The notes under the pieces were generated by a model, which was given only the letters and a program-made list of their open reading frames with translations, ran no database searches and had not been told where the DNA came from. A stretch of 64,000 nucleotides of DNA from a virus: IMG/VR virus record IMGVR_UViG_3300017917_002434, positions 1-64,000 of that record, one strand, 5' to 3'. Below, in pieces: positions 4,822 through 32,673 of this stretch. Within the stretch, counting starts at the first letter, position 1. Each line of letters begins with the position of its first letter. The position numbers were made by a program, and so were the translations under genes.

Positions 4822-4851
4822 AAATAGGGCTCTTCGGAGCCCTATTTTTTT
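4822..4851. terminator. bidirectional intrinsic terminator
   Basis: AAATAGGGCTC-TTCG-GAGCCCTATTT forms an 11-bp stem with a stable cUUCGg tetraloop, followed by a T run (to 4851) on the plus strand. The mirror strand has an A/T-rich tail (TTTTATT), so it can also end the minus-strand radical-SAM operon. It separates the infA operon from the metabolic island. Confidence 0.9.
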
Positions 4852-6461
4852 GGCTGTTGATAACGAGATATGAGTCGTCGACTTCGTTGTTTAGATTTTA
4901 ATTTTTGTATTAACGGTTTTATATAATCTTCTGTAACAGTTTTAATATATAATTCGTATCTATCAATCGACCCTACTAAATTTTTATACTCGTCGTCAGT
5001 CATTGCCATTGTTAGTTTTCTATTCCCTAATATAGGGTGACTAAGTGTAGATTTGTAAAAATCTCCCTTCCATAACTTATTTGAATTCTCTAAATCAACT
5101 TCAGCAGCAATAGCATCTGCGGTTTCTAAATCAGGAATGTCAGTGTCGTCATCTTTACTCCACACCCAAAATAAGTTTGGATCTTTAAAATAATATCCGT
5201 AATTTTGATAATTTTTATCCATATCACTTTTATACATATATTTTGTTGATTCGTGATTGCCGGCTATACTGAGAGGAAACATCCAAGCTTCGTCAATAGG
5301 ACAATCCGGTGCTCTTAACCAGTCGACTGTTTCTTTAATTGATGATGTTGGTTCATGTGGCAAACCAATCATAAATCCTGCTTGAATATGAACTTTATCA
5401 CCCCAGACTTCTTTACATTTATATAAAGTTTCTTTTCTTCGTTCGGCACTCATGCCTTTACCAATAGTCTTTGATGCCTTAGGATGAAATGTTTCTATTC
5501 CTATATAACACTGTTCTAATCCTAGATCCAATAACAAAGGAATATGATCTAAATGAGTAGCTAATAAATCTAATCTAAGATAACACCAAAATTGTATTTT
5601 AAAAGATAGAGAATCTAAAATACGTTTTAACATATCTAATTTTTCTTGACTATCATTAAATGTATCGTCAATGATGTAATATTGTGTTACACCCCATTTC
5701 TCATAATTTTCAATAAGTTCTTCTCTTAAGACTTTCTCATGTTTTAAATAATCAACTGTATTTTTTTGTCCTATCATAGGATACGAACAAAATGTACATT
5801 TAAAACGACAACCCCGTCCTATCTCAAGAGCAAGAGTTTCATTGGGTTTAATAAAATCAAGATCTGTGTACAGTGTCTTACTTTCTCTAAAATCCCAAAC
5901 CGGATCTTTAGCTTTTTGATCATGATCAATAATTTTATTAAAAATTCTTCTAGTCTTTTTTGATAAGCTATCTAACAAATCAATCATCATAGTTTCGCCG
6001 TAGCCAATTATAACATGATCAATATAAGGTTGATCAAGATACATGTCTACTTTAGTTCCACCTAAAATAATTTTTGTCTTAGGATTCTTTGCTTTAATAA
6101 ATTCTAACCACGGATCAGCTCTATTCAAAATAAATGATTGGACTAAAGAATCTCGATCCTGATGTCTAAAAATTCTTTCACCTTCGTCTATATATGATCT
6201 TCCAGGGTCAACTACTTGAGCACCCGTACCCGGAAGTTTGTAAGGTAACCATGTGGTCGAAAATCCTATTGCTAAAGTATTTTCCCCAATTGCCATGTTT
6301 AAAATTTCTATATAATATTTGTAGTTAAGAGCTGAACTAAAATCTATAACTAGGCAAGAATATCCTCTTTCACGTAAGTGACTGGCTAATCGGTGACATC
6401 CATATCCTCTAGTCTTAGAAGCGTATTCTGGTGTGTCAGTGAATAAAATTACATCAAACAT
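4842..6461 (-). CDS. radical SAM protein with B12-binding-like N-terminus (copy 1)
   Basis: A 539-residue protein. Residues 1-160 look like a cobalamin-binding-type Rossmann region (MFDVILFTDTP start, then FSTTWLPYK and IILGGTKVDMYL) but lack the DxHxxG motif. The radical-SAM core begins at GRGCRFKCTFC, with cluster cysteines C218, C222 and C225. The downstream Y-IDDTFNDS and GFMIGLPHE elements are typical of class B radical-SAM enzymes. The last 100 residues have no recognised domain. It overlaps its paralogue upstream by 8 bases and ends at the bidirectional terminator. The reaction is unknown; class B enzymes methylate, cyclise or rearrange unactivated carbons. Confidence 0.85.
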   Translation of the reverse strand: MFDVILFTDTPEYASKTRGYGCHRLASHLRERGYSCLVIDFSSALNYKYYIEILNMAIGENTLAIGFSTTWLPYKLPGTGAQVVDPGRSYIDEGERIFRHQDRDSLVQSFILNRADPWLEFIKAKNPKTKIILGGTKVDMYLDQPYIDHVIIGYGETMMIDLLDSLSKKTRRIFNKIIDHDQKAKDPVWDFRESKTLYTDLDFIKPNETLALEIGRGCRFKCTFCSYPMIGQKNTVDYLKHEKVLREELIENYEKWGVTQYYIIDDTFNDSQEKLDMLKRILDSLSFKIQFWCYLRLDLLATHLDHIPLLLDLGLEQCYIGIETFHPKASKTIGKGMSAERRKETLYKCKEVWGDKVHIQAGFMIGLPHEPTSSIKETVDWLRAPDCPIDEAWMFPLSIAGNHESTKYMYKSDMDKNYQNYGYYFKDPNLFWVWSKDDDTDIPDLETADAIAAEVDLENSNKLWKGDFYKSTLSHPILGNRKLTMAMTDDEYKNLVGSIDRYELYIKTVTEDYIKPLIQKLKSKQRSRRLISRYQQPKK

Positions 6462-8061
6462 TTTTTAATTTATCTATTAGTTTTTTAAAATAATCTTGCT
6501 GTACAGAGTTAAAAAATAAATCTTCAAAATCTATATTCTGTATTCTTTGTAGATATTGTTCTTGTGTTAGATTCAATGTTTCTTCTCTATCTTTCAGCAG
6601 AGGATGATCAAAACTACTAACATAGAAATCCCCTCTCCTTATTTTTTGATAAGGCAATAGCTCTTGTGTAGTTTCATAAGACATTTGTTCTGCTTGTCGG
6701 AAGGATGTAATATCAGTGCCGTCATTTTTTTCCCAGGCTAATATTCCTTCAATCCCTGGATGAGGAAATTCATAACCAAACTGCTCATAGTTTTCATCAA
6801 ACCAGCTAGTTGGAAACCATTTATTTCTATCAGTTTTCTTAACTATGTTGAGAGGATAAACTGTGGAGATATCTAAAGGACAGTCGTCCCTTTTCAACCA
6901 ATCAACCGTCTGTCTCCAGGAAGCCTGAGTTTCGTACGGAAGGCCGATCATGAATCCTCCTTCTATCCATACTCTGTCTCCCCAGATTTCTTTAGCTTTA
7001 TATAGTGTATCCTTTCTTCGACTACTAGGCATACCTTTACCGATTGTTTTACTGCTCTTATCATTAAATGTTTCGAGACCGAAAAATGCTTCTGCTATTC
7101 CTAACTCTTTAAGTAACGTTATTTGCTCAGGATTGGCTGCTAATAAATCTACTCTAGTATAGCACCAAAACTTAATTTTAAACGGGAGGTCGTTTACAAC
7201 TTTTATTAACATCTCTAATTTTTCTGTACTGTCATTAAAAGTATCGTCTACAATAAAGTATTTGGTAGTACCCCAACGTTCATAATTTTCCATCAGCTCA
7301 TCTCTGATGATGTTAGGATATTTGAGATAATCGTTAACGTTCTTTTGCCCTATAAGAGGAAAATTACAGAAGGCACATTTAAATCGACAACCACGACCTA
7401 CTTCTAAATTAAGTGTTTCCTGTGATTGTATAAAATCAAATTCAGTGTATTGTGTTTTAGATTCACGAAAATCCCATGTTGGAGCATGAGCTTTACGATC
7501 GTGATCTATATACTTTCCGAAAATGCGTTTCGACTTGCCAGATAATTTATCTAGTAAATCTATAGTCATAGTTTCGCCTATGCCAAATATTACATGATCA
7601 ACATTTTTTAAATCCATGTAAAAGTCTGCTTTAGCACCACCTAAAACTATTTTCAATTTTGGATTAACTGTCTTAGGATATAATAGCCATTCGTCTACTT
7701 CGTTCTTTCCAAATTTAACTACTAGATTTTCTTTTCGCCAATCATGAATTTCTTCTTTAGCATGGCTCAGTTCTAAATCATCGCCTATGTAATGTCCTGG
7801 AATTTGATTAGTAAATTCTCCAGGTAATTCGGGCCAACGATACGGCAACCATGTAGTACTGAAACCAACCATTAGTGTTTCGGGACCAACTGATAAATCT
7901 ATAATTTCTTTATACTGGTCAAAGGTCAGTGCCGAACTGAAGTCTACCACTAAACAGGTATATCCATTTTGGCGTATATGATTAGCTATACGATGTACAC
8001 CGTAGCCACGAATTTTATGATGAGGATATGGGGCATCGGTAAATAGTATCACATTAAACAT
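6454..8061 (-). CDS. radical SAM protein with B12-binding-like N-terminus (copy 2)
   Basis: A 535-residue paralogue of the downstream gene, colinear over its whole length. It has the same start (MFNVILFTDAPYPHHKIRGYG), the same FSTTWLPYR and GRGCRFKCAFC (C225, C229, C232), and the same IVDDTFNDS and GFMIGLPYE. The two proteins have clearly diverged, so the duplication is not recent. Both may act in sequence or on related substrates. A T4-type late element TAAATA (8066-8071, minus strand) lies 4 bases before the ATG, predicting a transcript start at the start codon. It is divergent from the SGNH-hydrolase gene. Confidence 0.85.
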   Translation of the reverse strand: MFNVILFTDAPYPHHKIRGYGVHRIANHIRQNGYTCLVVDFSSALTFDQYKEIIDLSVGPETLMVGFSTTWLPYRWPELPGEFTNQIPGHYIGDDLELSHAKEEIHDWRKENLVVKFGKNEVDEWLLYPKTVNPKLKIVLGGAKADFYMDLKNVDHVIFGIGETMTIDLLDKLSGKSKRIFGKYIDHDRKAHAPTWDFRESKTQYTEFDFIQSQETLNLEVGRGCRFKCAFCNFPLIGQKNVNDYLKYPNIIRDELMENYERWGTTKYFIVDDTFNDSTEKLEMLIKVVNDLPFKIKFWCYTRVDLLAANPEQITLLKELGIAEAFFGLETFNDKSSKTIGKGMPSSRRKDTLYKAKEIWGDRVWIEGGFMIGLPYETQASWRQTVDWLKRDDCPLDISTVYPLNIVKKTDRNKWFPTSWFDENYEQFGYEFPHPGIEGILAWEKNDGTDITSFRQAEQMSYETTQELLPYQKIRRGDFYVSSFDHPLLKDREETLNLTQEQYLQRIQNIDFEDLFFNSVQQDYFKKLIDKLKNV

Positions 8062-8065
8062 CGAG

Positions 8066-8071: not shown

Positions 8072-8767
8072 ATGAGAAAATTTGAGTCGGTACTAGCATT
8101 TGGAGACAGCCATGTAGCAGGCTGTGAGTTGTCAGATTATTCTTTATTAGAAGATTACCTCACAGGAAAAATAACCATCGAAGAAGCAGATGCTGTAGGT
8201 AAAACTAAAGCATTCCCACAGATAGTAGCAAATCATTTTAATATACCCTGCCATAATTTTGCCATGACAGGCGGAAGCAATGAACGCAGTCTAAGAAAAC
8301 TAGTAGAAGTCATACAACAACATCCAAATAGTTTGGTTCTTTTTGGATACACATGTTCAGATAGAAAAGAATTCTTTTATCCAGACTACGGTAAATTTTT
8401 AGGACGAGATAAAGATAATTTTATACAAGTAGGCTTACAATGGGAAGGAAGAATATCGAACATATCTAAAACTATTGATAATCCCATCAATCAAATTTTT
8501 ATAGATCACATATCTAGACCACACAATAACTTTAAAGAATTAAGTTTTATAGTAGATGCTATCTGTACGTTGTGGGCTAAAAATTTTTTACACCTCCCGT
8601 TGTTTCCAGAGGACATAATACAGATAGATAATTTGTTCAATTTTGAAGGATCTGGTAATTATCTAACGTGGTGTAGAAAAAATAAATTTAATCATGGTCC
8701 TTTTCTTCATTACGGAGAGGACGCACATAAAAAATTAGCAGAATTAATAATAAAGGAGATAGCATGA
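8072..8767 (+). CDS. SGNH/GDSL hydrolase-like protein
   Basis: A 231-residue protein. The N-terminus AFGDSHVAGCE carries the GDS block with the nucleophile Ser13. AMTGGSNERSL provides the G and N blocks. Near the end, GPFLHYGEDAHKKLAELI gives a candidate catalytic His in the position usual for SGNH esterases. These enzymes hydrolyse acyl or acetyl esters on lipids, sugars or small molecules. Phage members may act in glycan or metabolite tailoring. It opens a plus-strand cassette and joins the next gene through an ATGA overlap. No signal peptide is seen, so it should be cytoplasmic. Confidence 0.75.
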   Translation: MRKFESVLAFGDSHVAGCELSDYSLLEDYLTGKITIEEADAVGKTKAFPQIVANHFNIPCHNFAMTGGSNERSLRKLVEVIQQHPNSLVLFGYTCSDRKEFFYPDYGKFLGRDKDNFIQVGLQWEGRISNISKTIDNPINQIFIDHISRPHNNFKELSFIVDAICTLWAKNFLHLPLFPEDIIQIDNLFNFEGSGNYLTWCRKNKFNHGPFLHYGEDAHKKLAELIIKEIA

Positions 8768-10908: not shown

Positions 10909-11453
10909 CTTGGATATTTGTTCAACTCTTCGTAAAATTTGCCTGGGAACAATTCCCACACAGTTTGCTTATGACCTCTATATTCTAAATTTTTAACATG
11001 TTTCATTTGTCCAGATTTTTCCATAGCGGGTCCAAAGATTCTGTGAACTAATCTCTGTGTCCCTACTTCACTTTCGTTACTGGTTATAAAAAGTCTGCTA
11101 CCTTTAGGAGCCCACTGTATACAGGTAGGGATTAAAAATTGTGCCGTAGCATGTTGATGTGTAGTTATCTGATTCACAGTACGTAGAGATTGTAAGGGTA
11201 ACATATCTGTGAATACGCAGGTTCTAGCAGCGATACGATAACAGTTTGCTCCCATCTCCGGAAAGCTATGAGCTGCGACTGATCCTACAGCTTTGTTGTT
11301 ATAATATAGAATCCAAACCTGCCATGATTTTTCTTTTTTAAAACTGCCGACTAACATCTGTTCAGATGAGTTGTTTACAAAACCTCTACGGTCTGCTTCG
11401 AAATAGAATTCCGAAAGATCTAAATCAGGACTCCAGGGAATTATTTTATACAT
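10893..11453 (-). CDS. hypothetical protein, weak acetyltransferase (GNAT) resemblance
   Basis: A 186-residue protein starting MYKIIPWSPDLDL. The segment WQVWILYYNNKAVGSVAAHSFPEMG looks like the central beta strands of GNAT acyltransferases, but no clear acetyl-CoA loop (R/Q-x2-G-x-G/A) is visible, so this is tentative. The C-terminal part (RIFGPAMEKSGQMKHV, then KQTVWELFPGKFYEELNKYPRW) resembles the tail of that fold. It overlaps its upstream neighbour by 13 bases and its downstream radical-SAM gene by 16, so the three are probably translated together. Confidence 0.55.
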   Translation of the reverse strand: MYKIIPWSPDLDLSEFYFEADRRGFVNNSSEQMLVGSFKKEKSWQVWILYYNNKAVGSVAAHSFPEMGANCYRIAARTCVFTDMLPLQSLRTVNQITTHQHATAQFLIPTCIQWAPKGSRLFITSNESEVGTQRLVHRIFGPAMEKSGQMKHVKNLEYRGHKQTVWELFPGKFYEELNKYPRWQIL

Positions 11454-12142
11454 TTTGCTTTCTCTATAAAATCTGCTGGATAATTAGTTCTAAAACTTTC
11501 CCAGCATAGATCCTGTAAAAGATCTAATGGCTGCGGTGCTGACCAACTTATACCTAATTTATCCGTATGTTTACGCATTTCCATCTGTCTGTTACTATGT
11601 ATATGGCTTAGATGATCGTTGATAGATATAGGTCCTTCGCTTTCATGATAACAGAAAAAATAGTTTATACTTTTTAACTGCCCATCGACTAAGAAATAAC
11701 TGCTAGGATGCATAGAAAATTTATATAATCCTAACGATCGATGTGCCTGTAATATTCTTAACATCTGCTCTTGCCAATCGGGCAATACTGAATCGTAGTT
11801 TTCTGTTAAACATCCTGCCCTGTTCCAAAAATCTAAACCGTCAATCTCGAGATAAATTTTTTGATTGATGTGATCTATCTCTTTAATCTTAGGAACTTTA
11901 TCTCTGTACTTCCATGCCATCTCTATGAGGTATTTTACTTCCCTGTTCCATTTGGCATTCATCAATATCGGATCAATTACTTCATTTTGTCCTTTATGGT
12001 ATTCGCTATCATTATGAAACCACATAACAAAAGTTTTTTTATCCTGGCTTATCAGACTAGTGTAAATAAGATTGTTCCTACACAGCCCTACACCAGGAAC
12101 GTTGTTATAATAGTATTCGTAATTCATATATTTAATTATCAT
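11441..12142 (-). CDS. hypothetical protein, paralogue of the 12941-13624 product
   Basis: A 233-residue protein with no assigned family. It is a diverged paralogue of the plus-strand gene at 12941: both share the order YY-G-, NREV-YL (KWNREVKYLIEMAWKY), a buried KIYLEIDGLDFW segment, then YKFSMHPSSYFLVDGQLKSINYFFCYHE. The last block, H-P-x-x-x-F-x-x-x-x-G-x-L-K-x-I/A, recalls a worn kinase-like catalytic loop, but no Lys-Glu or DFG pair is evident. The start may instead be the Met at 12127, since an ATG occurs at both. It heads the minus cassette, divergent from the oxygenase gene at 12151. Confidence 0.6.
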   Translation of the reverse strand: MIIKYMNYEYYYNNVPGVGLCRNNLIYTSLISQDKKTFVMWFHNDSEYHKGQNEVIDPILMNAKWNREVKYLIEMAWKYRDKVPKIKEIDHINQKIYLEIDGLDFWNRAGCLTENYDSVLPDWQEQMLRILQAHRSLGLYKFSMHPSSYFLVDGQLKSINYFFCYHESEGPISINDHLSHIHSNRQMEMRKHTDKLGISWSAPQPLDLLQDLCWESFRTNYPADFIEKAKCIK

Positions 12143-12150
12143 AAAAAATA

Positions 12151-12954
12151 ATGATCAAAGGTATAAACGGACAAGCGTATTTCAATATGGAACCTTACTT
12201 AGATATGGTCGAGTTTGAACGCCTCCAACCAGAAATTTTAAAAGGGTTTGCTCTAGCCAGAGATCAAGCTAAAGAAGGTACGTGGATGACTCCGGGATTT
12301 ACTTTCGACAACATGAGCTATACTCCGCATTGGAAACCCATATACAAAGCCATGTCTGAATTTTTAGATCTTCCAAACGACGATCCTATTAAACAAGCCG
12401 GATTGGAACTAATGCCTAAGGATTTTAAAAATTTTCAGGAACGTAATAAATTTACAAGATATATTAAAATGGCTCTAGGAGCCTATGATCCTTATATCTA
12501 TTATTACCTTTGGGAGGAAGGCTCGTGGGATGATAGAACAGCACCACGTAAACTTACTCCAGAGGCTCAACATTTTCCTAATGTAGTTAAATGGGTTGAA
12601 AGTTTAGTAGGCACAGTGTTTGAAGATATTGGTCGTGTTATATTCTTCCACTGTGAGGCAGATGGTATTCCTTTTGAACATCGCGACTTAGATGCTAAGA
12701 ATGGCATCGACGTTGTTAAGCCTCATCGTAATGAATTTATACATATTCGTCCTAATACAAAAAAAGCAATGTATCTTTGGGATCCAGAGTCAAAGAATAA
12801 GACGTATCTAAACACTCGTGCCGCATGGTGGAACGATACTGACTGGCATGGCGGTGAACGTATTATAGAACAGAGTTACAGTCTACGCATTGACGGCAAG
12901 TTTACTGAGAACTTTCGTAAGAAATTAGGAATAGATCACCTTGAATCATACTGA
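12151..12954 (+). CDS. Fe(II)/2-oxoglutarate oxygenase-like protein
   Basis: A 267-residue protein whose C-terminal half has the 2OG-oxygenase triad. FHCEADGIPFEHRDLDAKNG provides H-x-D, WWNDTDWHGGERII provides the distal His, and SYSLRIDGKF provides the Arg that binds 2-oxoglutarate. The N-terminal 130 residues have no recognised domain and contain many aromatic residues (YDPYIYYYLW). The oxygenase would be cytoplasmic and could hydroxylate an amino acid, peptide or metabolite. It is followed by, and overlaps by 14 bases, a gene that starts with TTG. Confidence 0.7.
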   Translation: MIKGINGQAYFNMEPYLDMVEFERLQPEILKGFALARDQAKEGTWMTPGFTFDNMSYTPHWKPIYKAMSEFLDLPNDDPIKQAGLELMPKDFKNFQERNKFTRYIKMALGAYDPYIYYYLWEEGSWDDRTAPRKLTPEAQHFPNVVKWVESLVGTVFEDIGRVIFFHCEADGIPFEHRDLDAKNGIDVVKPHRNEFIHIRPNTKKAMYLWDPESKNKTYLNTRAAWWNDTDWHGGERIIEQSYSLRIDGKFTENFRKKLGIDHLESY

Positions 12955-13624
12955 TTGGTTTCATTATTACGGTATAGACAAAGACGGATATAGAACTAAA
13001 CCCGGAGCTATTTACGAGCCTTTGGTAAACAGAGAACGATCGGAGCTCTGTATGAATTTTAACAATAATAATTATAGAGATTATCCTGTAGACGATGATC
13101 TAATAATAGATTGTTTTAATAGAGAAGTTCGTTACTTAACTCAGTTTCAAAAATATAGTTGGTGTGCTAGATTACGTGATATAGATTTTAAAGGCCGTAA
13201 AATATACATCGAATGGAATAACGTGTGCTGCGAAACATATATCAATTCTAAAGGTTCTCTAGATTCTATCTGTACTAATTGGTCAACACAATTAGAAACT
13301 ATTTGTCGTGATATCAAATCCGAAAGCGTCTATAAGGTAACGATGTATCCTTGTTATCATTTCGTAGACACACAAGGCAGATTAAAAGCATTTGCGTTTT
13401 ATACAGCCAGCGATTACTGCGAACAACCTATAGAAATAGATATGTACAGGCCAGTATTAAATCAAGAAAGATCTGAACTAATAGACAGTATCGTTAGAGA
13501 CAACAAAGTAGACATGGCGTTGGTCAATCAACATAGTTTTTTAAACTATATAAAATGGCCAGGAGATCCGTTACCGAGGATTTACAAAAAACTTTACAGT
13601 ATTGTCGAAAGCAGCAATATTTGA
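12941..13624 (+). CDS. hypothetical protein, paralogue of the 11441-12142 product (TTG start)
   Basis: A 227-residue protein of unknown family. It shares its full layout with the minus-strand gene at 11441-12142: NREVRYLTQFQKYSW, KIYIEWNNVCCETY, VYKVTMYPCYHFVDTQGRLKAFAFY and NQERSEL. The start is probably TTG at 12941, overlapping the preceding stop by 14 bases, because no in-frame ATG exists until about residue 38. The two paralogues flank the oxygenase gene on opposite strands. Its 3' end overlaps the opposing radical-SAM gene by 54 bases, the largest convergent overlap in the window. Confidence 0.62.
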   Translation: MNHTDWFHYYGIDKDGYRTKPGAIYEPLVNRERSELCMNFNNNNYRDYPVDDDLIIDCFNREVRYLTQFQKYSWCARLRDIDFKGRKIYIEWNNVCCETYINSKGSLDSICTNWSTQLETICRDIKSESVYKVTMYPCYHFVDTQGRLKAFAFYTASDYCEQPIEIDMYRPVLNQERSELIDSIVRDNKVDMALVNQHSFLNYIKWPGDPLPRIYKKLYSIVESSNI

Positions 13625-22630: not shown

Positions 22631-23153
22631 TTTTTATACCTAAATAATGGAACATAAACTTATCTCTAAGACCGCAGTTAACTCCAGCATGCCAATCTAA
22701 GTAATCGTCCCACAGAACAACTTTACCTCGAGGCTGTAAATGATGTACTTGATCTTTGATTATGAACAGAGCCCCTAGACTCGGTTCGCTGATGAATACA
22801 CTAAATCTAACTAACGAACCTTTAGACAGATATTCTTCAATATTGTCATCTATGTCTTGATGGAATGGTGCCATCTTTCCCGGACGCATTCTACTAATCC
22901 AATTTCTAGCACACTGACTATCAGACCACTTACTAAATTTTTCTGCTACTGTGTCGCTATAATGTTTACCAGGATAATAATTTATCCATTCTACACTATC
23001 GCATTTATCGTAGCCTGCTGTTTTCCATTGTGTGATCAGTGAATTAAATCTGCCGTCGGTGTTTTCATAAAAATCAGCAGATGGGGTTTTATACTCTCCC
23101 TGATCTAAAGGTAGAGATTGTATAAGGGAGTTCCAATCAAAATCGTATAACAT
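22620..23153 (-). CDS. Fe(II)/2-oxoglutarate oxygenase-like protein
   Basis: A 177-residue protein. RPGKMAPFHQDIDDNIEEYL gives H-x-D; DDYLDWHAGVNCGLRDKFMFHYLG gives the distal His and Arg. The N-terminal EWINYYPGKHYSD region may form the substrate lid. It overlaps its neighbours by 11 and 17 bases in the same minus-strand operon. The substrate is unknown. Confidence 0.7.
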   Translation of the reverse strand: MLYDFDWNSLIQSLPLDQGEYKTPSADFYENTDGRFNSLITQWKTAGYDKCDSVEWINYYPGKHYSDTVAEKFSKWSDSQCARNWISRMRPGKMAPFHQDIDDNIEEYLSKGSLVRFSVFISEPSLGALFIIKDQVHHLQPRGKVVLWDDYLDWHAGVNCGLRDKFMFHYLGIKNEK

Positions 23154-23763: not shown

Positions 23764-24428
23764 AAAATCTTCGCTCCGAACGAGTCACCTAATCTCGTCA
23801 CCAGGTCATCTAATTTGATTTTTTCTATAGATAAAATTACTTTATCAGTAGTGTAACTAAAATCAGAAATATAGCCTTGCTTGTTGGCCATATTCAACCA
23901 TGGACTTATCCAATGATCAAACTGATACCTATAATCAAACATTTCTCGTTTACTTGTTATTTCTATAGTAGCAGGATCTACTAATATGTTTTTGTTCAAT
24001 AATTTTCTAACCACTAACTGTCGGCGAGGTATTTGACCAAAATTAGCAGCGGTATGTAAATTACCAGCATTCATCGAATACCATTGACCATCTTGTACTG
24101 TCTCAAACATCTTGTTATTATCTAGATCAATAAGATATGATTGATTTCCGTCAAGGTTAAGATGCCAGCGATCATCAATATCACTATGGCTGTAATAATT
24201 GGTTCCTGGGTCTAGTGTTATTATTCGTGCTTCGCCTATGGGTTCTTTTATCGTTTCTAATATTGCTTGCCAGGCTGTGTTTTTAAATTGTTCTTTCAGC
24301 TCCCATCGATCATAGAAAAAACTACCAACGGGTTGATTCAGTGTTTGTTTAGTATCAATAGAATCTATCGATGTCAAAGCATCGTGGATTAATTTAATAT
24401 CGACTGAATATTCTGTAGATTCTATCAT
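23760..24428 (-). CDS. Fe(II)/2-oxoglutarate oxygenase-like protein
   Basis: A 222-residue protein. TNYYSHSDIDDRWHLNLDGN gives H-x-D and NAGNLHTAANFGQIPRRQLVVRKL gives the distal His and the Arg. The layout resembles aspartyl/asparaginyl hydroxylase-type proteins. A C-terminal 70-residue extension (KREMFDYRYQFDHW onward) is absent from the other members of the block. It is coupled by a 4-base overlap to the radical-SAM gene upstream, so the maturase-like enzyme and the oxygenases are translated together. Confidence 0.7.
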   Translation of the reverse strand: MIESTEYSVDIKLIHDALTSIDSIDTKQTLNQPVGSFFYDRWELKEQFKNTAWQAILETIKEPIGEARIITLDPGTNYYSHSDIDDRWHLNLDGNQSYLIDLDNNKMFETVQDGQWYSMNAGNLHTAANFGQIPRRQLVVRKLLNKNILVDPATIEITSKREMFDYRYQFDHWISPWLNMANKQGYISDFSYTTDKVILSIEKIKLDDLVTRLGDSFGAKIL

Positions 24429-25852
24429 AATAAATGTACTAGTTCCGGAAATGTTAATTTAAAATCTGTACCTCGTTGTCTATCCATTACAGTAATGTAT
24501 TCACGAAAATCAGGGAGTAGATTTGTATGGTCCTCGGCATCCATCCAATCAAGGATACCTTCCCAGCGTTTCCAACCATAAGGATTAGTTTCCCAGAATT
24601 CTTCGTCGTGTGTATAATTGTCCCATAGCCAAGTTTGTAGTTCAGAAAATAATTGCCTAATTTCTTTCTTATCTTCATCGGGCAATACTCTAAGGCTTAG
24701 CCATGTAGGAATCCAAAGTAAGTGAACTCCCATTAGGCCTCCTCCCATAGTTTGACCTGCAGCATTTTTATCAAAGTTAATTTTTTTAAAATTACTACGC
24801 ACCTTCCATTTAATAAAATCAGGAACATGTTTTATGTTCAAAATCTGTACGGCAAATGCTATATTTGTTTGTATGTTGTCCGGAGCAGAATCTAATAATT
24901 TAAGATTCTTCTCTATGGTATCCCAGTCTAACGGATATCTTATATAATGGCCTCGCTGCTCCATACCGTCGAGACTAAACCCAACTTTGACTTTCTTAAA
25001 TTTTTGCCATACAGAAATAATTTCTTCATTGACAAGTAGTCCATTAGTATTATATCTTAAACTAATCTGATCAGCATACCCTCTAACAATAATTTCTTCT
25101 AATAATCTTCGATGCTCTTTTATCAACAAAGGTTCGCCACCGGCGAAATATAGCTGTCGGATATTAGGTATTTGGTCAAACACCTGTTCCCAGAACTGAG
25201 GATTTTCATGCCAGTAATTATTAAACTGACCAGGGGTCCAGTCCATTTGTTTTTTAATTAACGGACTCTGGAATATAGGATATACTTTCTTGTGCTCTGT
25301 TACCCATTGACTACTATCATGAGGGCTACACATGATACATTTCAAATTACAGGTGTGACCTAATCTAAGATCTAGGTATCGCAATTTATAAGGAACAGAC
25401 CCGTCTTCTTCTGTCTCTTTAATTAATTCTTCTATATCTAATTTTTCATTAAGATACCAAGTACCAGTTTCCCATATACGTTTACTAGCGATACCTTGTT
25501 GTTCTTCTTCGTAACATTTTAAACAACTAGCAGGAACTTCCCCTGCCAACATTGTTTTGCGTACACTTTTCATGTAATCGTTATTAAACGCATCAACAGG
25601 TAAGTCCTTACCAAAGTTAGCAGGTTCACCATTTTCTTTTTTGACTAATCCAACTGTGTAGTCTCCACTCTCTGCTCCTGATGCGTTAGCTACGCAACAG
25701 ATCCTCATATCACCGTTAGGTCTAGTGGCTAGATGTATCCAAGGTAATACACAGAAACTATCGGACCCAGTAACATCTTTGATCTGCTTCTGCCATTTAC
25801 CAAGCTGTGTGTCTTGAGATTGTAGCCAAAATACCTTATTTTTTTCTATCAT
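24425..25852 (-). CDS. radical SAM protein with N-terminal SPASM/twitch-like Cys domain
   Basis: A 475-residue protein. The N-terminal 115 residues have a Cys set C34 (FCVLPWIHLATRPNGDMR), C52-C53 and C110-x2-C113 (ASCLKCYEEE), like the SPASM/twitch auxiliary-cluster domains but placed before the core. The radical-SAM motif C168-NLK-C172-IM-C175 follows, with LYFAGGEPLL and RYNTNGLLV. SPASM enzymes mature peptides or modify anaerobic sulfatases. It shares this layout with the product at 27412. I chose the ATG at 25852; a TTG at 25924 would extend it 24 residues into the divergent gene. It heads the eleven-gene operon. Confidence 0.85.
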   Translation of the reverse strand: MIEKNKVFWLQSQDTQLGKWQKQIKDVTGSDSFCVLPWIHLATRPNGDMRICCVANASGAESGDYTVGLVKKENGEPANFGKDLPVDAFNNDYMKSVRKTMLAGEVPASCLKCYEEEQQGIASKRIWETGTWYLNEKLDIEELIKETEEDGSVPYKLRYLDLRLGHTCNLKCIMCSPHDSSQWVTEHKKVYPIFQSPLIKKQMDWTPGQFNNYWHENPQFWEQVFDQIPNIRQLYFAGGEPLLIKEHRRLLEEIIVRGYADQISLRYNTNGLLVNEEIISVWQKFKKVKVGFSLDGMEQRGHYIRYPLDWDTIEKNLKLLDSAPDNIQTNIAFAVQILNIKHVPDFIKWKVRSNFKKINFDKNAAGQTMGGGLMGVHLLWIPTWLSLRVLPDEDKKEIRQLFSELQTWLWDNYTHDEEFWETNPYGWKRWEGILDWMDAEDHTNLLPDFREYITVMDRQRGTDFKLTFPELVHLL

Positions 25853-25894
25853 GAAATATTTATATGCTACTATTTTAGGGTTAAATATTTCATG
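25850..25894. promoter_or_regulatory. palindromic divergent late promoter, 13-bp inverted repeat over both start codons
   Basis: CATGAAATATTTA (25850-25862) and TAAATATTTCATG (25882-25894) are perfect inverted repeats separated by 19 bases. Each arm contains a T4-like TAAATA element 4 bases from the start codon of the gene it faces, so both divergent genes share an identical start context. Both transcripts would begin at or beside their ATG. Confidence 0.65.
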
Positions 25895-26740
25895 ATCCGA
25901 ATAGCACCAGAGTATTCTAGCCAATATTTAGAAATAGAGAGACCTTCTCCGTTAACTGACAATCGTATAGAATCATTGATAGGCGATGTATTAAATGGAA
26001 ATATTGACAAAGATATTTCCGACATCGTATATGATCGATTTAAATCAGAAACAGAACAATGGATTTTATCTTCTAAATTAAATTCTATCAGAGGTCTCGA
26101 ATCTTTTGAACGTAAAGATATTATCATAGGCTGTACTCAGTTTATTGATTCAACTTATATGAACGGGCCAGTACAGACTATTCTAGGTGATTATAGATAT
26201 CATCAACGACTTGGATTATCTTACGTTAGAGAACCGGGTAATCTTATGCCAGGTATTCCGTTATTGATAGCTATGCCTTTCCCTAGCATCGGCACACCTC
26301 ACGAAAAAATGGAGGAGATTTTAAATGAAAGTTTGGAAAAAAATATCCCAGTACATATCGACGGAGCGTGGGTCACGTGTTGCCGCTCTGTTGATTTCAA
26401 TCTTAATCACCCTAGCGTGGTATCTGTGGCAATTAGCCTCTCTAAAGGATTAGGTCTAGGCTGGAACAGGATCGGACTTAGATGGATTAAAAAATTTAAA
26501 CAAGATTCGATCACTATTATGAACGACTTCAATATGAACAATAGAGCGTTGGTAATGATCGGTCTACATTTTATACGTACTTTGCCAAATGATTACCTAT
26601 GGAATACACACGGGGATAGATACTATAAAGTTTGTAGAGATTTCAACCTGACACCCACTAACAGTATCCATCTCGCTCTAAGAGCAGGAGAACCAGTAGG
26701 TGTGAGCCCATTAATTAGATATTTAGAAAACAATGATTGA
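25892..26740 (+). CDS. short PLP-dependent (type I fold) aminotransferase-like protein
   Basis: A 282-residue protein with the PLP-enzyme core. IPVHIDGAWVTCCRS supplies the Asp that pairs with the pyridine nitrogen, and SVAISLSKGLGLGWNRIGLRW supplies the Schiff-base Lys (SLSKG) and the following Arg-binding loop. At 282 residues it is about 100 shorter than class I/II aminotransferases, lacking most of the C-terminal small domain. The N-terminal 60 residues are unusual. It may be a minimal aminotransferase, lyase or racemase, or a degenerate binding protein. It is followed, with an 8-base overlap, by the PP-loop gene. Confidence 0.7.
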   Translation: MIRIAPEYSSQYLEIERPSPLTDNRIESLIGDVLNGNIDKDISDIVYDRFKSETEQWILSSKLNSIRGLESFERKDIIIGCTQFIDSTYMNGPVQTILGDYRYHQRLGLSYVREPGNLMPGIPLLIAMPFPSIGTPHEKMEEILNESLEKNIPVHIDGAWVTCCRSVDFNLNHPSVVSVAISLSKGLGLGWNRIGLRWIKKFKQDSITIMNDFNMNNRALVMIGLHFIRTLPNDYLWNTHGDRYYKVCRDFNLTPTNSIHLALRAGEPVGVSPLIRYLENND

Positions 26741-27464
26741 ACAAGACGGACTTATCATACCCTTTGATCCTGCGTGGAATAGGATAGCCATAAGTGTCAG
26801 TGGTGGTGCTGACAGTGCTTTATTAGCCTATCTTCTCTGCGATTATATAAGAAAAAATGATCTATATCCTTTTAACGTACACATTATAAATCATGTGCGT
26901 TGTTGGAAAACCAAACCTTGGCAACAACATGATGCTCAGAACGTTTATAGATATCTGTTTCAAGAATTTACGCATATTAATTTTAAAAAGCATACAAATT
27001 TTATAGCACCTGAACTAGAGTGGGGAGACCAAGGTCCGACACTGACAGACGAATACGGAAAATCTGTCAGCGGCGATAATATCGAACAACGAGCATTCGC
27101 AGAATATATCTGCCATAGAGAAGATATCGATGCCTACTATAATGCTGTTACTAGAAATCCGAGAGATGTGGATTTTAAAGGTATGCCAACTAGAGATATA
27201 GATGAAACCGATGATAATCAGCATCTACGTCTAATGACACATATGGGTCGCACTGCTGTACATCCTTTTAGATTCATAGAAAAATCTTGGATAGTAAAAC
27301 AATATAAAGATTTAGATTTAAAAAAATTATTTGATATAACTCGTAGTTGCGAGGGAACATTTGAAAATATAGATTATACCAACTATCAACCAGGACAAAA
27401 AGTTCCAGTATGTGGTGAATGTTTTTGGTGTAAAGAAAGAGAGTGGGCACTTGGAAAAAACTAA
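26733..27464 (+). CDS. PP-loop ATP pyrophosphatase, QueC/ExsB-like
   Basis: A 243-residue protein with the PP-loop S23-GGADS motif (ISVSGGADSALLAYLL) and a C-terminal zinc-type Cys set. A first Cys in TRSCEGTF is followed about 25 residues later by VPVCGECFWCKEREW, matching the C-x18-21-C-x2-C-x2-C arrangement of QueC. QueC makes 7-cyano-7-deazaguanine from carboxydeazaguanine. The middle of this protein (HVRCWKTKPWQQHDAQ and onward) is unlike QueC, so it may adenylate another carboxylate. It is in a cassette with a PLP enzyme and radical-SAM genes. A QueD-like gene lies 18 kb away. Confidence 0.72.
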   Translation: MIEQDGLIIPFDPAWNRIAISVSGGADSALLAYLLCDYIRKNDLYPFNVHIINHVRCWKTKPWQQHDAQNVYRYLFQEFTHINFKKHTNFIAPELEWGDQGPTLTDEYGKSVSGDNIEQRAFAEYICHREDIDAYYNAVTRNPRDVDFKGMPTRDIDETDDNQHLRLMTHMGRTAVHPFRFIEKSWIVKQYKDLDLKKLFDITRSCEGTFENIDYTNYQPGQKVPVCGECFWCKEREWALGKN

Positions 27465-28719
27465 TCCTTCGACATTTTGTATGCATCCGTTCACTGGCCT
27501 AGCTACCAGAGAAGATGGTGCGGTTTGTGTTTGTTGTCGTAGCCATCCTATTGGTTGGATACAGGAAAACAGCCTAGAAGAAATCTGGAATAACGATAAT
27601 ATGAAACGTATACGTAAACAGGTACTAGGCGGAGTTCGCCCTCCCGAGTGCGAACCTTGTTTTAGTTTAGAAGATCAAGGTGTAGAAAGTCTACGTCAGA
27701 GACACATCAATGGTAAAATACCCGAGGCACGTATTAGATTATATCCTAACGCAAATCATAAGATTAATAAAGAGTTTGAAATGCCATTTGAAATACCTAC
27801 AATGGAACTTAAACTTAATAATCTTTGTAATCTAAAATGCCGCATGTGTCATCCTATGGACAGTACGTCGTGGAATGATTGGGAACAAGTAGAAGAGTTC
27901 TATGAAAAAGAAAATAACATTATGTTTCATATCGTAAAGAAACATAATCTTAAAGAAAAACCTTTTTTAGATAAATTTCAAGACAACGAGCAATGGTGGT
28001 CTAGTTTAGAAAAAAATTTACCTTACTTCAGACGTGTTGAGTTTGCCGGCGGGGAGCCATTAATGGATCCACAACATTATAAGATTTTAGACATGCTCGC
28101 TCCATACGGTGATCAAATAGAAATTAAGTACGCTACAAATTTAACTATGTTAGGCAAAAGCAATCGTACTATTTGGGAATATTGGCCTAAATTTAAATCA
28201 GTGGCTGTCAATGTCAGTATTGACGGGATTGGCCAGAGCTACGAATATATTAGAGGTAATGCCTCCTGGGCTGAGCTGATCCACAACATCAAACAGATAC
28301 AGACTATATCTAACATTAGTCGTATAGTAGGTGCTGTAACAGTACAAGTCAGTAATGTATTAGTGTTAGATAAGATATGTGAATATTTCCTAGATGATTT
28401 AGGTATAGTATTTCACACCCATAGAGTAGAATACCCTAAGTTACTGTCAGCTCAAGTCTTACCTCACGAATTAAAAAATTTAGCAGTAAAAAGATTACAA
28501 GATCTAAGTTTGCGTGTTAAAGATTTTAAATTGGTTAAAGAACATCCCCAGCTGCTGGAATATACATTAGGGCAGATACAGGATAATATTAACTATATCC
28601 AAGCACGTGATCAAAATGACAAGTGGAATGATTGTGTAGAATTTAATCGTAGACTAGATAAGTCTAGAGATACATGGAAATTTGAAGAAGTCACTCCTGA
28701 ATTTAAACCTTATGTATAA
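27412..28719 (+). CDS. radical SAM protein with N-terminal SPASM/twitch-like Cys domain
   Basis: A 435-residue protein. N-terminal Cys residues C23 (FCMHPFTGLATREDG), C39, C41-C42 and C80-x2-C83 form a SPASM/twitch-like set. The cluster motif C139-NLK-C143-RM-C146 is followed by VEFAGGEPLMDP and KYATNLTM, then NVSIDGIGQSYEYIRG. It is a paralogue of the product at 24425-25852. The ATG at 27412 overlaps the QueC-like gene by 53 bases; a TTG at 27451 (overlap 14 bases) is an alternative start that keeps every Cys. Confidence 0.83.
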   Translation: MVNVFGVKKESGHLEKTNPSTFCMHPFTGLATREDGAVCVCCRSHPIGWIQENSLEEIWNNDNMKRIRKQVLGGVRPPECEPCFSLEDQGVESLRQRHINGKIPEARIRLYPNANHKINKEFEMPFEIPTMELKLNNLCNLKCRMCHPMDSTSWNDWEQVEEFYEKENNIMFHIVKKHNLKEKPFLDKFQDNEQWWSSLEKNLPYFRRVEFAGGEPLMDPQHYKILDMLAPYGDQIEIKYATNLTMLGKSNRTIWEYWPKFKSVAVNVSIDGIGQSYEYIRGNASWAELIHNIKQIQTISNISRIVGAVTVQVSNVLVLDKICEYFLDDLGIVFHTHRVEYPKLLSAQVLPHELKNLAVKRLQDLSLRVKDFKLVKEHPQLLEYTLGQIQDNINYIQARDQNDKWNDCVEFNRRLDKSRDTWKFEEVTPEFKPYV

Positions 28720-29620
28720 CGTAACTTCATCATGGCCACATCAAGATCAGATCAAAGTCGAATGGAACATCGGCAAGAGATGTAATTACGACTGTAGCTA
28801 TTGTCCGGCAAGCATACATGATCATTACAGTCCGCACACTGACATTAATATTTTAGAAAAAACTGTTGATCGTCTCTGCGAATTAGGTAAACCATTACGT
28901 ATCAGTCTAACTGGCGGTGAACCTTGCGTACATCCCGATATAGAAGATCTATTTGAGTATATGAAACGTAAGGATATTTTCTGGATAAACGTAACAACTA
29001 ATGGCACTAGAACTGCTAGATGGTACATAGATAATTCAATATTTTTCAATCATATGGTAGTAAGTTTACATTTTGAATATGACTGGAAGAGAGTATTAGG
29101 CACTATTCATGAACTAAAATTTGCCGCCGCTAACATGGACTTTTTTGTTAATGTCATGGCACATCACAATCATATGGACGATGTTAAGGCCGCTGTTGAG
29201 TTTTTAGACAAAGCCGAAATTAAGTATGCTATTCGAAGAATAAGATGGACCGAAGGCGATCATAATGTGTTCGACGATATGAGGTACGATGGCAAAGACC
29301 TTGAATGGATTCTCTCTAAAGATGCTACAGTAAAACCGAATACAGTAATCACCGAAGATGATGGATCTAAAATCTATCTTCATGCTAATGACATTATTAA
29401 AAAGAAGATGAATAGCTTCAAAAGTTGGAAATGTAACGCAGGAATCGAAAGTCTAATGATTAACTGGGACGGTGAGGTACATCGTGCTACCTGCCGAGTT
29501 GGAGGGAGTTTGGGTAATATCTATACAGGAACCTTCACTGAACAATTACAAGCTGTAACCTGTACTAGAGACTGGTGTACCTGTGCTGCTGATATCCCGT
29601 TAACTAAGTTTAAATTTTGA
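28712..29620 (+). CDS. radical SAM protein (CNYDCSYC)
   Basis: A 302-residue protein with C24-NYD-C28-SY-C31, then ISLTGGEPCVHPDI and NVTTNGTRTARWY. A C-terminal Cys group (WKCNAGIESLMINWDGEV, TCRVGG and DWCTCAADI) may bind a second cluster. I chose the ATG at 28712, which overlaps the upstream stop by 8 bases. It shares the C-terminal N-W-D-G and C-x-C elements with the minus-strand genes at 29600 and 31687, so these three are one subfamily. Its 3' end overlaps the opposing gene by 21 bases. Confidence 0.83.
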   Translation: MYNVTSSWPHQDQIKVEWNIGKRCNYDCSYCPASIHDHYSPHTDINILEKTVDRLCELGKPLRISLTGGEPCVHPDIEDLFEYMKRKDIFWINVTTNGTRTARWYIDNSIFFNHMVVSLHFEYDWKRVLGTIHELKFAAANMDFFVNVMAHHNHMDDVKAAVEFLDKAEIKYAIRRIRWTEGDHNVFDDMRYDGKDLEWILSKDATVKPNTVITEDDGSKIYLHANDIIKKKMNSFKSWKCNAGIESLMINWDGEVHRATCRVGGSLGNIYTGTFTEQLQAVTCTRDWCTCAADIPLTKFKF

Positions 29621-30634: not shown

Positions 30635-31733
30635 TTACTATCTGGTCTCTAGGCCGAGAAAACGTTACTTGATCTGAAACTCCGCAAGTTCTAGCACACA
30701 TTATTAACTTGTCATTGTGCCATCTGTCGAACCAAAGAGTCTGGTATTCGTCAGAATCGATTATTTCTCTAATAGATTTTTTCAAAACATTAACTGTTCC
30801 TAACTTTTCTATTATCTCTTTATCTTGTTGTTTCATTTCTTTTTTAATTTTTCCTGTTATGTCATCAGCTTCGTAAGCATATGGAACACTGGCTAACCAA
30901 CAACAGGGATACAAATTCTTATGTGCGTCAATATATACTTCTTTTTCTTGTAATACTTTACAATCTATACGAGAACTTTCTGTTATTTCTTTGTATGAAA
31001 ATAAAACTTTTTTATCAATAAACGTCAAGGGCATGTCTGAGGGTGGTCTTATCTGATAGGCAGGATAACCATTTTTGTCTTGTACATCGAGATATGGATT
31101 AATCATAAATCTTGATGTGTTCTTTACAGTAAACTTAGCAAACCCTAAATCAGCGGCAATCTGTCTTGCCTGTTCGACCTGATCCTGATTGTGTTGAAAT
31201 CGTATAAACACCCATTCAGCTGTACCTCCCGATTGAATAAAAGCTGTAGCATTGTCTAAGATTTTATTATAATCGGTTCCTATACGATAAATTTGTTGAG
31301 TTTTATCATCTATGCCATCTATTCCGAATATCACCGTATGGTCTTCTGGCAATTTAGGCACTAGGTTACGCCACCATAATGTATTTCGTATGCTGCCGTT
31401 TGTGTGTATTCGTAGTCTTACATTCGGATTTATATTTTTTGTATATTCGCAGAAGGCCGGTAGTTCATTATTGATTACAGGATCACCATAATTTCCACAG
31501 AAATAAATGTCTTCGATTTGTTTTAAAACTTCTTGCGTCATTATAGATTTGTAATCTGACAATGACCAATCAGAATAAGTTAAATTAGGATTTTCGATAC
31601 CGCCGCGAATGTTCCTCGCACACATCGGACAGCTGGCCTGGCAACGATTAGTTATTTCAAGATGTATGGATTTTAATTGAGAAAATTTAAACAATTTTAA
31701 CCTTGGGTATTTTACTATCTGCTGAACTAACAC
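30621..31733 (-). CDS. radical SAM protein (CQASCPMC), SPASM-like C-terminus
   Basis: A 370-residue protein with C31-QAS-C35-PM-C38, FCGNYGDPVINNEL in place of GGEP, and RIHTNGSIRNTLWW. The C-terminus has DCKVLQEKEVYIDAHKNLYPCCWLAS and MCARTCGVSDQV, a SPASM-like Cys set. It is the paralogue of the product at 13571-14638 (beside the halogenase). It overlaps the upstream gene by 47 bases, and no later ATG before the cluster motif is available, so the true start may be a rarer codon. Confidence 0.8.
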   Translation of the reverse strand: MLVQQIVKYPRLKLFKFSQLKSIHLEITNRCQASCPMCARNIRGGIENPNLTYSDWSLSDYKSIMTQEVLKQIEDIYFCGNYGDPVINNELPAFCEYTKNINPNVRLRIHTNGSIRNTLWWRNLVPKLPEDHTVIFGIDGIDDKTQQIYRIGTDYNKILDNATAFIQSGGTAEWVFIRFQHNQDQVEQARQIAADLGFAKFTVKNTSRFMINPYLDVQDKNGYPAYQIRPPSDMPLTFIDKKVLFSYKEITESSRIDCKVLQEKEVYIDAHKNLYPCCWLASVPYAYEADDITGKIKKEMKQQDKEIIEKLGTVNVLKKSIREIIDSDEYQTLWFDRWHNDKLIMCARTCGVSDQVTFSRPRDQIVNETN

Positions 31734-32673
31734 AGCTAGGTGTTGAACAAGTTTTGGGTTCGTTGAATAAATCGAAACCTTCTGTTATAGTTCCTAGCAA
31801 AGGATCATGACAGCTATAAGCTCTTTTAACTTCATTACCTCTTATAACTACACTTTGGTAACCGCTGTTACACCGCCACCCATTAAACTTATTAAAATTA
31901 AAAGCATTAAATCGTTCTGCTTGATCGAGTAGATATTCGTTGTTTTCTTTATCGTACAGTGCTACCTGATAGACTGGTTGATTATCAGATACCTGCGGAA
32001 ATCCTTCACGCATGAGTTTTATCATATGATCAGTGTAACCGCCTATCACTGAACTGGCTGTCGGATCGCTCTGCGGTTTTAATGTTACGTTAATTCCTCT
32101 CTTATAGAATCTTTCGCAGCGGTCATACAACTCATAGAATTGTTCAGGTACCATTACTTGATTAACCGTAACATGAACTAAATCGTAAGTCAGCTGTAAA
32201 CATTTATCACCAAATTCTTGTTCTTTGGCAAATTCGGCATGATAACTGGCAGTGATACTTCTACGCTGTAGCATCTCCGTATTCCTACACCATGTATTCC
32301 ACCATTTACTCCCGGGGCTTAGATTAGTAGTCATGTGAATACTCTGATAAGGTGTCCTTGGGCCGTCATCAAGATGTTTAACTAGATCCAACAGACCTTT
32401 ATAGGCAGTTGGCTCTCCCCCGCTAAAACTCCAATGGAATTCTGTAAAACCATTTTGTCTCGCCTGTCTTTTGATCTCATCTACGGTGTTTTGATAAACA
32501 TCTAAACTTTGAAAATCCACCCTATCAGAATGGGCATATGGCCAGCAATAGGAACAAGAATAATTACAGAAGCGTCCTAGTATCCAGCTTACATTAAAAA
32601 GCGGACGATCCAACATTGTCCTTTGGCCAAATCTTGTTATTGTTTCGAATGGTATTGATTGAAAATCTGACAT
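31687..32673 (-). CDS. radical SAM protein (CNYSCSYC)
   Basis: A 328-residue protein with C36-NYS-C40-SY-C43, FSFSGGEPTAYKGL-type sequence (HWSFSGGEPTAY) and HMTTNLSPGSKWW. The end holds WRCNSGYQSVVIRGNEVKRAYSCHDP and CSTPSCVSS, the same auxiliary-Cys layout as the products at 28712 and 29600. I chose the ATG at 32673; a TTG at 32715 would add 14 residues. A late element TAAATA sits 10 bases upstream, so the leader would be about 5 bases. This is the last gene of the metabolic island. Confidence 0.83.
   Translation of the reverse strand: MSDFQSIPFETITRFGQRTMLDRPLFNVSWILGRFCNYSCSYCWPYAHSDRVDFQSLDVYQNTVDEIKRQARQNGFTEFHWSFSGGEPTAYKGLLDLVKHLDDGPRTPYQSIHMTTNLSPGSKWWNTWCRNTEMLQRRSITASYHAEFAKEQEFGDKCLQLTYDLVHVTVNQVMVPEQFYELYDRCERFYKRGINVTLKPQSDPTASSVIGGYTDHMIKLMREGFPQVSDNQPVYQVALYDKENNEYLLDQAERFNAFNFNKFNGWRCNSGYQSVVIRGNEVKRAYSCHDPLLGTITEGFDLFNEPKTCSTPSCVSSADSKIPKVKIV

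Follow-up and report, generated by a model that had tools for sequence, protein, structure and literature searches.

A conserved, modular island of radical-SAM and oxygenase genes in a large T4-like phage, with late decoration as its best-supported reading

In the virus record IMGVR_UViG_3300017917_002434, a dense island of enzyme genes was found that combines ten radical S-adenosylmethionine (radical-SAM) proteins with seven proteins of the 2-oxoglutarate (2OG) oxygenase type. The window analysed here is the stretch of bases 1-64000 of this 269,730-base record, which carries a T4-type major capsid gene (gp23) and thus represents a T4-like phage of 269.7 kb. By capsid (~68-73% capsid identity), its closest isolates are jumbo T4-like phages that infect Sinorhizobium, Vibrio, Pseudomonas and Cronobacter, and a nucleotide search of 50,697 phage records with this DNA gave no match. 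A preliminary description, made from the letters alone, had placed the island at 4842-32673 and read it as a complete, undescribed pathway acting late in infection and possibly making a modified amino acid, peptide or nucleic-acid base.

The enzyme island and its genes

Open reading frames (ORFs) and Pfam/NCBIfam searches confirm the enzyme island as a whole. Its left edge was kept, its right end is corrected to 32715, and the start of the gene at 24425-25924 is better set at the ATG at 25852. Within the island (window 4842-32715), 31 overlapping genes form short runs that alternate between strands, in line with the short cassettes first described, and 99.7% of it is coding, the sole gaps being of 8, 10, 24 and 39 nucleotides (nt). 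Local G+C is ~35-37%, compared to ~38-44% in most of the remaining window. The gene labels rest on ORFs, Pfam/NCBIfam profile searches, PHROG, PDB profiles and structure models compared by Foldseek. All 31 island proteins were also searched against related viral loci retrieved with the PP-loop protein and the amidinotransferase; removal of duplicate contigs left 81 loci, and all locus counts are conditional on these two baits. The features are the following (window coordinates, strand).

4818-4852 (no strand): terminator-like hairpin, AAATAGGGCTCTTCGGAGCCCTATTTTTTT, convergent left border between 4817 (+) and 4842 (-)
4842-6461 (-): rSB12a, B12-binding/radical-SAM protein; PF04055 66 bits, weak B12-binding match
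6454-8061 (-): rSB12b, B12-binding/radical-SAM protein; PF04055 62.6 bits; TTAAATA 4 nt before ATG
8072-8767 (+): SGNH/GDSL-type hydrolase; weak PF00657
8764-9123 (+): SpeD-family pyruvoyl decarboxylase; PF02675 (AdoMet_dc) 70 bits
9113-9838 (+): heme-dependent oxidative N-demethylase-like protein (HODM); PF11927 (HODM_asu) 81 bits
9826-10959 (-): rSTes, radical SAM with N-terminal zinc ribbon; PF04055, PF23545
10893-11453 (-): u1, conserved protein; GNAT acyltransferase-like by eye only; homologue in contig L101 (see below)
11441-12142 (-): kinA, protein-kinase-fold protein; profile against PDB kinases E 2e-4
12151-12954 (+): u2, HxD protein, probable 2OG oxygenase; HRD at 177; no Pfam match
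12941-13624 (+): kinB, kinA paralogue; 27% identity to kinA over 159 aa
13571-14638 (-): rS1, radical SAM; PF04055 28 bits, slightly under cut-off
14638-16248 (-): flavin-dependent halogenase; PF04820 (Trp_halogenase) 281 bits against a cut-off of 21
16259-16266 (+): late-promoter-like TATAAATA at the halogenase/ox1 divergent junction
16273-16875 (+): ox1, probable 2OG oxygenase; HID at 113, size, context; TATAAATA 6 nt before ATG
16857-18032 (+): AT3, class-III aminotransferase; PF00202 (Aminotran_3) 152 bits
18009-19085 (-): AMT, amidinotransferase; best solved structure 1bwd E 8e-24; HsvA 3e-21
19046-19477 (-): u3, conserved phage protein; phrog_10325 E 4e-22
19467-20084 (-): short-chain dehydrogenase-like protein; weak PF00106/PF01370, below cut-off
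20075-21439 (-): u4, predicted glycosyltransferase-A (GT-A)-like N-terminal domain; Foldseek; model of predicted template-modelling score (pTM) 0.53
21432-22076 (-): oxAsp1, Asp/Asn beta-hydroxylase-like 2OG oxygenase; PF05118 (Asp_Arg_Hydrox) 48.8 bits
22064-22630 (-): ox2, probable 2OG oxygenase; HID at 73
22620-23153 (-): ox3, probable 2OG oxygenase; HQD at 98; in 49/81 loci
23137-23763 (-): ox4, probable 2OG oxygenase; HQD at 108
23760-24428 (-): oxAsp2, Asp/Asn beta-hydroxylase-like 2OG oxygenase; PF05118 21.6 bits, slightly under cut-off
24425-25852 (-): rSTwiA, twitch-domain radical SAM; NF033640 399 bits; TATAAATA 4 nt before ATG
25857-25864 (-): late-promoter-like TATAAATA before rSTwiA
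25892-26740 (+): PLP2, conserved enzyme-like protein; in 32/81 loci; TTAAATA 4 nt before ATG
26733-27464 (+): PP-loop enzyme with QueC-like four-Cys motif, core marker; SGGADS and four Cys
27412-28719 (+): rSTwiB, twitch-domain radical SAM; NF033640 330 bits; in 69/81 loci
28682-29620 (+): rS2, radical SAM; PF04055 50.7 bits
29600-30634 (-): rS3, radical SAM; PF04055 50.3 bits
30621-31733 (-): rS4, radical SAM; PF04055 31.2 bits; family common to Campylobacter phage CP220
31687-32715 (-): rS5, radical SAM, island end; PF04055 41.5 bits
32737-32847 (+): flanking tRNA-like RNA, right border; covariation with controls; Rfam tRNA 25.8 bits

Ten radical-SAM enzymes in one phage represent an extreme investment, and the number first reported holds, as the CX3CX2C motif is intact in each of them; nine reach or pass the PF04055 cut-off, and rS1, a paralogue of rS4 (29% identity over 347 aa), falls slightly short of it. 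Both twitch proteins exceed the curated cut-off of 170 bits of the N-twitch radical-SAM profile NF033640. The core of rSTes resembles tetraether lipid synthase/TrsS (7tol, E 3e-19), with an NF045702 score of 84 bits that lies under the cut-off of 450 of that profile. The adjoining rSB12a and rSB12b are paralogues (50% identical) and, because a search of IMG/VR and phages gave no match for the B12 radical-SAM protein, it was not taken as a marker. The seven proposed 2OG proteins (u2, ox1 to ox4, oxAsp1 and oxAsp2) all carry an HxD motif, and of these two match PF05118, one of them slightly below cut-off, while the other five are assigned by motif, size and context; u2 is highly conserved (~41-86% identity across relatives).

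Several of the remaining enzyme names given at first sight are well founded. The halogenase is clear from its PF04820 score; its cyanophage and pelagiphage homologues are ~25-31% identical, and its substrate class is uncertain because the WxWxIP stretch reads GWCFDIS by eye. Likewise, the amidinotransferase agrees with solved structures, foremost 1bwd, and its motifs HIDHGW and GIHCLTLD are invariant or almost so among 25 members. SpeD matches PF02675 and, in an alignment of ten members, conserves the residues equivalent to S63, H68 and C83, the pyruvoyl Ser and the catalytic His and Cys (PMC10407285). Some phage homologues of SpeD act on Arg or Orn (PMC9992855), no spermidine synthase (SpeE) was found in the record, and the substrate of the island protein may be AdoMet, Arg or Orn. 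The N-demethylase-like protein matches PF11927 in its C-terminal part only (profile positions 82-270 of 273), and no homologue of it was found in the first 99 relative loci.

Other names hold in part. The short-chain dehydrogenase and SGNH hydrolase have weak Pfam matches. One of two proposed pyridoxal phosphate enzymes is the class-III aminotransferase; the other, PLP2, has no Pfam or PHROG match and is a putative one only. The QueC-like enzyme has a PP-loop and a four-Cys motif (SGGADS, C206, C227, C230 and C233 are invariant in the family alignment), with scores of 18.2 and 13.8 bits that miss the QueC PF06508 cut-off of 22 bits. Elsewhere in this phage folE, queD and queE of the 7-deazaguanine pathway occur (record 99094-99918, window 45672-46199 and record 104643-105494, respectively), and canonical queC and tRNA-guanine transglycosylase (TGT) were looked for in the record and not found. 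No Pfam or PHROG match was obtained for u1. The kinA model (pLDDT, a per-residue confidence score, 88.5) has its best kinase-fold Foldseek neighbour at E 2e-7, with a template-modelling score of only ~0.46, and the protein may be a pseudokinase, since by eye its HRD and DFG positions are replaced. Together with kinB and the family F18 of relatives, kinA belongs to small kinase-fold proteins whose catalytic motifs are apparently lost and which are possibly substrate-binding pseudokinases.

Late promoters had also been proposed. Of 30 occurrences of TAAATA placed 2-9 nt before an ATG, 20 coincide with a gene start, compared to at most 11 for permuted hexamers, and among the carriers are the terminase gene, the genes at 229765 and 234986, and four island starts (8061-, 16273+, 25852- and 25892+). 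This late-promoter-like element agrees with the proposal and, at motif level only, supports late expression of the island. The longer TATAAATA was rejected as the motif itself, being depleted in the window (3 compared to 9.4 expected); the useful motif is TAAATA before an ATG.

The right border is marked by a tRNA-like RNA of ~100-119 nt, present in at least 120 viral stretches, with a 7-bp acceptor showing compensatory changes, a T arm, a discriminator A and CCA, and with a long hairpin at the place of the anticodon arm, often capped by a UUCG or GNRA-type loop. Its 26 pairs are paired in 94.5% of cells, 11 of them changed on both sides, and none of 500 shuffles scored as high; the Rfam tRNA score of 25.8 lies under the gathering threshold of 29 bits and ARAGORN made no call. 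A TATAAT-like box lies just upstream in 78/79 loci and rS5 is the divergent 5' neighbour in 61/79. A role of the RNA in the pathway was weighed and rejected; we treat this RNA as a flank because 13/79 loci carry it without island genes in the DNA examined.

Conservation in viral relatives and the linked glycosyltransferase-like block

Scans of IMG/VR returned 19 loci for the amidinotransferase, at least 251 stretches with the PP-loop protein and at least 325 viral relatives of u4. Per locus, a median of 13 island-family genes was found (n=81). The core comprises the PP-loop enzyme, the twitch and other radical-SAM proteins, the Asp/Asn-hydroxylase-like oxygenases, the GT-A-fold protein and the kinase-fold proteins, with rSTwiB in 69 loci, oxAsp2 in 66, rS2 in 62, rSTwiA in 60, rS4 in 59, and the PP-loop enzyme and u2 in 51 each. 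Halogenase, amidinotransferase and SpeD are accessories that vary between relatives, whose further accessories are mainly more 2OG oxygenases and methyltransferases, next to single FkbM-type and sugar-epimerase genes and several SGNH-like genes; they fit tailoring, without deciding the acceptor. Several neighbour pairs are fixed or almost so, namely u4-oxAsp1 (adjacent in 29/29 loci), ox2-ox3 (17/17), AT3-AMT (17/18) and SGNH-SpeD (7/7), and rS2 follows rSTwiB in 46/62, whereas other pairs are reshuffled. The gene set is thus modular, with a stable core and exchangeable accessories. Genes scattered without fixed neighbours, which would have spoken against the original proposal, are not what the relatives show, and this conservation rules out a chance assembly.

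The core is kept in hundreds of contigs of aquatic T4-like phages, and its best marker family hardly occurs in cellular genomes: among 84,980 of these only two candidate PP-loop matches were obtained, of which one covers the protein (L101, 23% identity). This near absence makes the system essentially viral at the sensitivity of our search. L101 (NHBR02000105.1) is a contig binned as a Muricauda metagenome-assembled genome and carries radical-SAM, GT-like, kinase-like and structural-type genes; it is probably a mis-binned phage contig, judging by these genes. Its island-like cluster also holds IMPDH-like, class-IV aminotransferase-like and AMP-ligase-like genes. A cellular source was considered and set aside, as this distant match looks phage-like, a twitch radical SAM exceeds the cut-off in 2/396 Bacteroidota genomes, and no informative cellular operon was found. 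Among cultured phages, no match was found for the PP-loop, u2 or GTc (see below) protein.

Reading the gene order around u4 relatives showed that the island families adjoin a further block. In ~50 contigs the marine order p111-GTa-GTb-p198-GTc-GTd-rS5-rS4-F7-oxAsp1-u4-rSTwiB-rS2-rS3-rSTwiA-SGNH-like-PP-loop-oxAsp2-F18-ox3 runs unbroken with small variations (F7 is methyltransferase-like), rS5 stands directly after GTd in 55/55 cases, and a beta-rich structural-type protein directly precedes p111 in every locus read. Pfam finds nothing in the glycosyltransferase (GT)-like block; GTa and GTb match glycogenin (profile against PDB, E 1e-5) with an invariant DxD, which GTc and GTd also carry. In the present phage, homologues of these block genes (p111, GTa, GTb, GTc and GTd) lie at record 111,775-115,858 on the minus strand, beside a twitch radical SAM (record 110,412-111,800) and directly downstream of fibre-like genes that start at record 115,898. 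One fibre-like protein shares a domain with a 2841-aa protein (window 51943-60468) that matches tail-fibre PHROGs, and the same fibre-like protein has homologues in PA5oct that bear the annotation virion structural protein. Of the 19 other large records searched, six carry the GTc/d pair.

Outside the island, genes for Nol/NodU-like carbamoyltransferases lie at record 204151-206897 and 258019-260559, the latter beside a twitch radical SAM and an SGNH-like gene, and a 72-aa protein at window 2980-3198 (+), conserved in 17 related loci, reads by eye like translation initiation factor IF-1.

A possible decoration pathway and its alternatives

The function of the island is best read as late decoration tied to the GT-like and fibre-like genes, which is the best-supported reading of these sequences. 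That this is a late phage pathway with fibre or tail proteins as the most likely target, and with the GT-like block as its partner half, we propose tentatively and with rather less than even confidence. The gene content, the conserved order, the GT linkage in relatives, the blocks of phages CP220 and K566 discussed below and the late-promoter-like motif are the observations behind it, while we infer a shared substrate, the direction of the pathway and the fibre as acceptor. In such a scheme, the island would be the C-H-functionalising half, in which radical-SAM and 2OG enzymes would hydroxylate, methylate or rearrange a residue or sugar; GT-A enzymes (u4 and those of the block behind the fibre-like genes) would then add sugars to it, and the halogenase, the amidinotransferase with the aminotransferase, SpeD, the N-demethylase and the SGNH protein might alter end groups phage by phage. 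Acting on the phage's own fibre or tail proteins, the pathway would vary the virion surface. The neighbourhood of the amidinotransferase in Synechococcus phage S-SCSM2R (see below) would also fit this reading. One may naturally suspect that a single residue is first hydroxylated and then glycosylated, since oxAsp1 adjoins u4 in all 29 loci and u4 resembles LH3 and COLGALT1, which together with a PBCV-1 capsid GT are among its best Foldseek neighbours at weak E-values (3e-4 to 8e-4). The full picture of a widespread phage system that hydroxylates or remodels and then glycosylates fibre residues, with swappable halogen, guanidine and amine end groups, is rather doubtful when all its parts are taken together.

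A number of points weigh against fibre decoration. No GT clearly supported by sequence lies inside the island, the GT-A call for u4 depends on the model of moderate pTM and weak E-values mentioned above, and GTc and GTd had no match against PDB and are GT-like by their DxD only. In this phage 79 kb separate the GT-like block from the island, and 13/19 other records, among them fragments of 191 and 169 kb, have no GTc/d match, which says little because most records are fragments. The fibre identity of the gene before p111 rests on composition and paralogy and not on a database name, and SpeD and the amidinotransferase would fit small-molecule chemistry equally well. With the GT-like half at record 110.4-115.9 kb, outside the island, the claim of a complete pathway is unsupported.

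The target could instead be a host surface glycan (lipopolysaccharide or capsule), the envelope being remodelled against superinfection or for progeny release. Heptose- and nucleotide-sugar-like genes, carbamoyltransferase and many GT-like genes elsewhere in the phage fit such a role, as do the FkbM-type methyltransferase, sugar-epimerase and SGNH-like accessories of relatives, the amidinotransferase of Synechococcus phage S-SCSM2R, located beside KdsA, KdsB, GTs and 2OG genes, and the GTs near pelagimyophage tail fibres, which were so read by their authors (PMC7029224). However, gene starts with a late-promoter-like motif come late for exclusion, genes for export, a lipid carrier or a polymerase were not seen, and it is structural genes, not the sugar-nucleotide genes, that are closely tied to the island, so that we consider a host-surface target unlikely, and less likely than the virion fibres.

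We give the same low weight to the late synthesis of a free natural product, be it an amino acid, a peptide or another small molecule. SPASM/twitch and B12 radical-SAM proteins, Asp/Asn hydroxylase, halogenase, aminotransferase, amidinotransferase and SpeD are typical tailoring enzymes, but the island shows no nonribosomal peptide synthetase, polyketide synthase, adenylation, cyclodehydratase or transporter gene. Nor is a precursor gene for a ribosomally synthesised and post-translationally modified peptide visible in or beside the island, where coding density and gaps of at most 39 nt leave no room and where clustering gave no small conserved family resembling a precursor; the peptide product first considered loses ground accordingly.

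Still less probable is a hot spot in which unrelated auxiliary genes have gathered, each affecting host metabolism on its own. The strongly variable content, the individually widespread accessories, the lack of HODM in relatives and the occurrence of the same border genes in contigs without island genes in the DNA examined would all suit it, but fixed adjacency, a core conserved in hundreds of contigs and core proteins confined to viruses, the PP-loop family for example, do not.

Hypermodification of phage DNA or a tRNA base, to which the QueC resemblance of the PP-loop protein, the folE, queD and queE genes and the occurrence of 2OG and radical-SAM enzymes in known base-modification systems might point, is very improbable given late-promoter-like starts, GT-like and structural neighbours and the lack of PF00303 (thymidylate-synthase/hydroxymethylase family) and PF01702 (TGT/transglycosylase) genes in the record, where divergent DpdA was not searched for; the modified nucleic-acid base is disfavoured because of this lack. 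From the interpretation in the preliminary description, co-inheritance and the late motif find support, whereas completeness does not, the base is disfavoured and the peptide product lacks a visible precursor gene.

If fibre decoration holds true, phages would vary their surface by chemistry rather than via fibre sequence, with a bearing on their host range, on immunity and on ecology. In any case, the island yields a large enzyme set with built-in partner information.

Comparison with known systems

The pairing of a hydroxylase-like with a GT-A-fold protein is alike in the collagen enzymes LH3 and COLGALT1, which act on collagen lysine by hydroxylation and/or glycosylation; the fold similarity is weak and no membership is claimed. 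PF04820 halogenases occur in cyanophages and pelagiphages and have not been reported there in a radical-SAM/2OG island of this kind. In Vibrio phage K566 (OZ196521.1, 161.5-170.3 kb), twitch radical-SAM genes, two of whose products exceed the NF033640 cut-off, are interleaved with GT8/GT4 genes, while no 2OG, halogenase or amidinotransferase gene was seen in that block. Pelagimyophages, which are T4-like marine phages as well, possess a hypervariable host-recognition region with tail fibres, GTs and radical-SAM cassettes, the radical-SAM genes being treated descriptively (PMC7029224); the likeness to the island is one of description.

Timms et al. (2010) noted one functional module that two Campylobacter phages, CP220 and CPt10, possess in unrelated versions, and they gave no function for it (PMC2853527). 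CP220 is likewise T4-like, and one exchangeable block of it unites five radical-SAM genes with an amidinotransferase, a combination of several radical-SAM genes and an amidinotransferase that also holds for the island. Its proteins are homologous to the rS1/rS4 and rS2/rS3 families and to the amidinotransferase (hidden Markov models, E 1e-31 to 5e-42, the last value being that of the amidinotransferase). The block differs in size (10-12 genes compared to 31), lacks, as annotated, the 2OG set, PP-loop enzyme, twitch radical SAM and halogenase. It also holds nucleotide-diphospho-sugar-transferase-fold genes; of such a kind the island proper has only the predicted GT-A protein u4, the GT-like block lying apart in this phage and contiguous with the core in marine relatives. 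The epithet "undescribed" therefore needs qualification, as small homologous or related cassettes had been reported (PMC2853527; PMC7029224), and stands in so far as they came without a function. The island is a much enlarged variant of the unexplained module already noticed in Campylobacter phages, and the module of 2010 is hereby placed within a wider system with a testable prediction.

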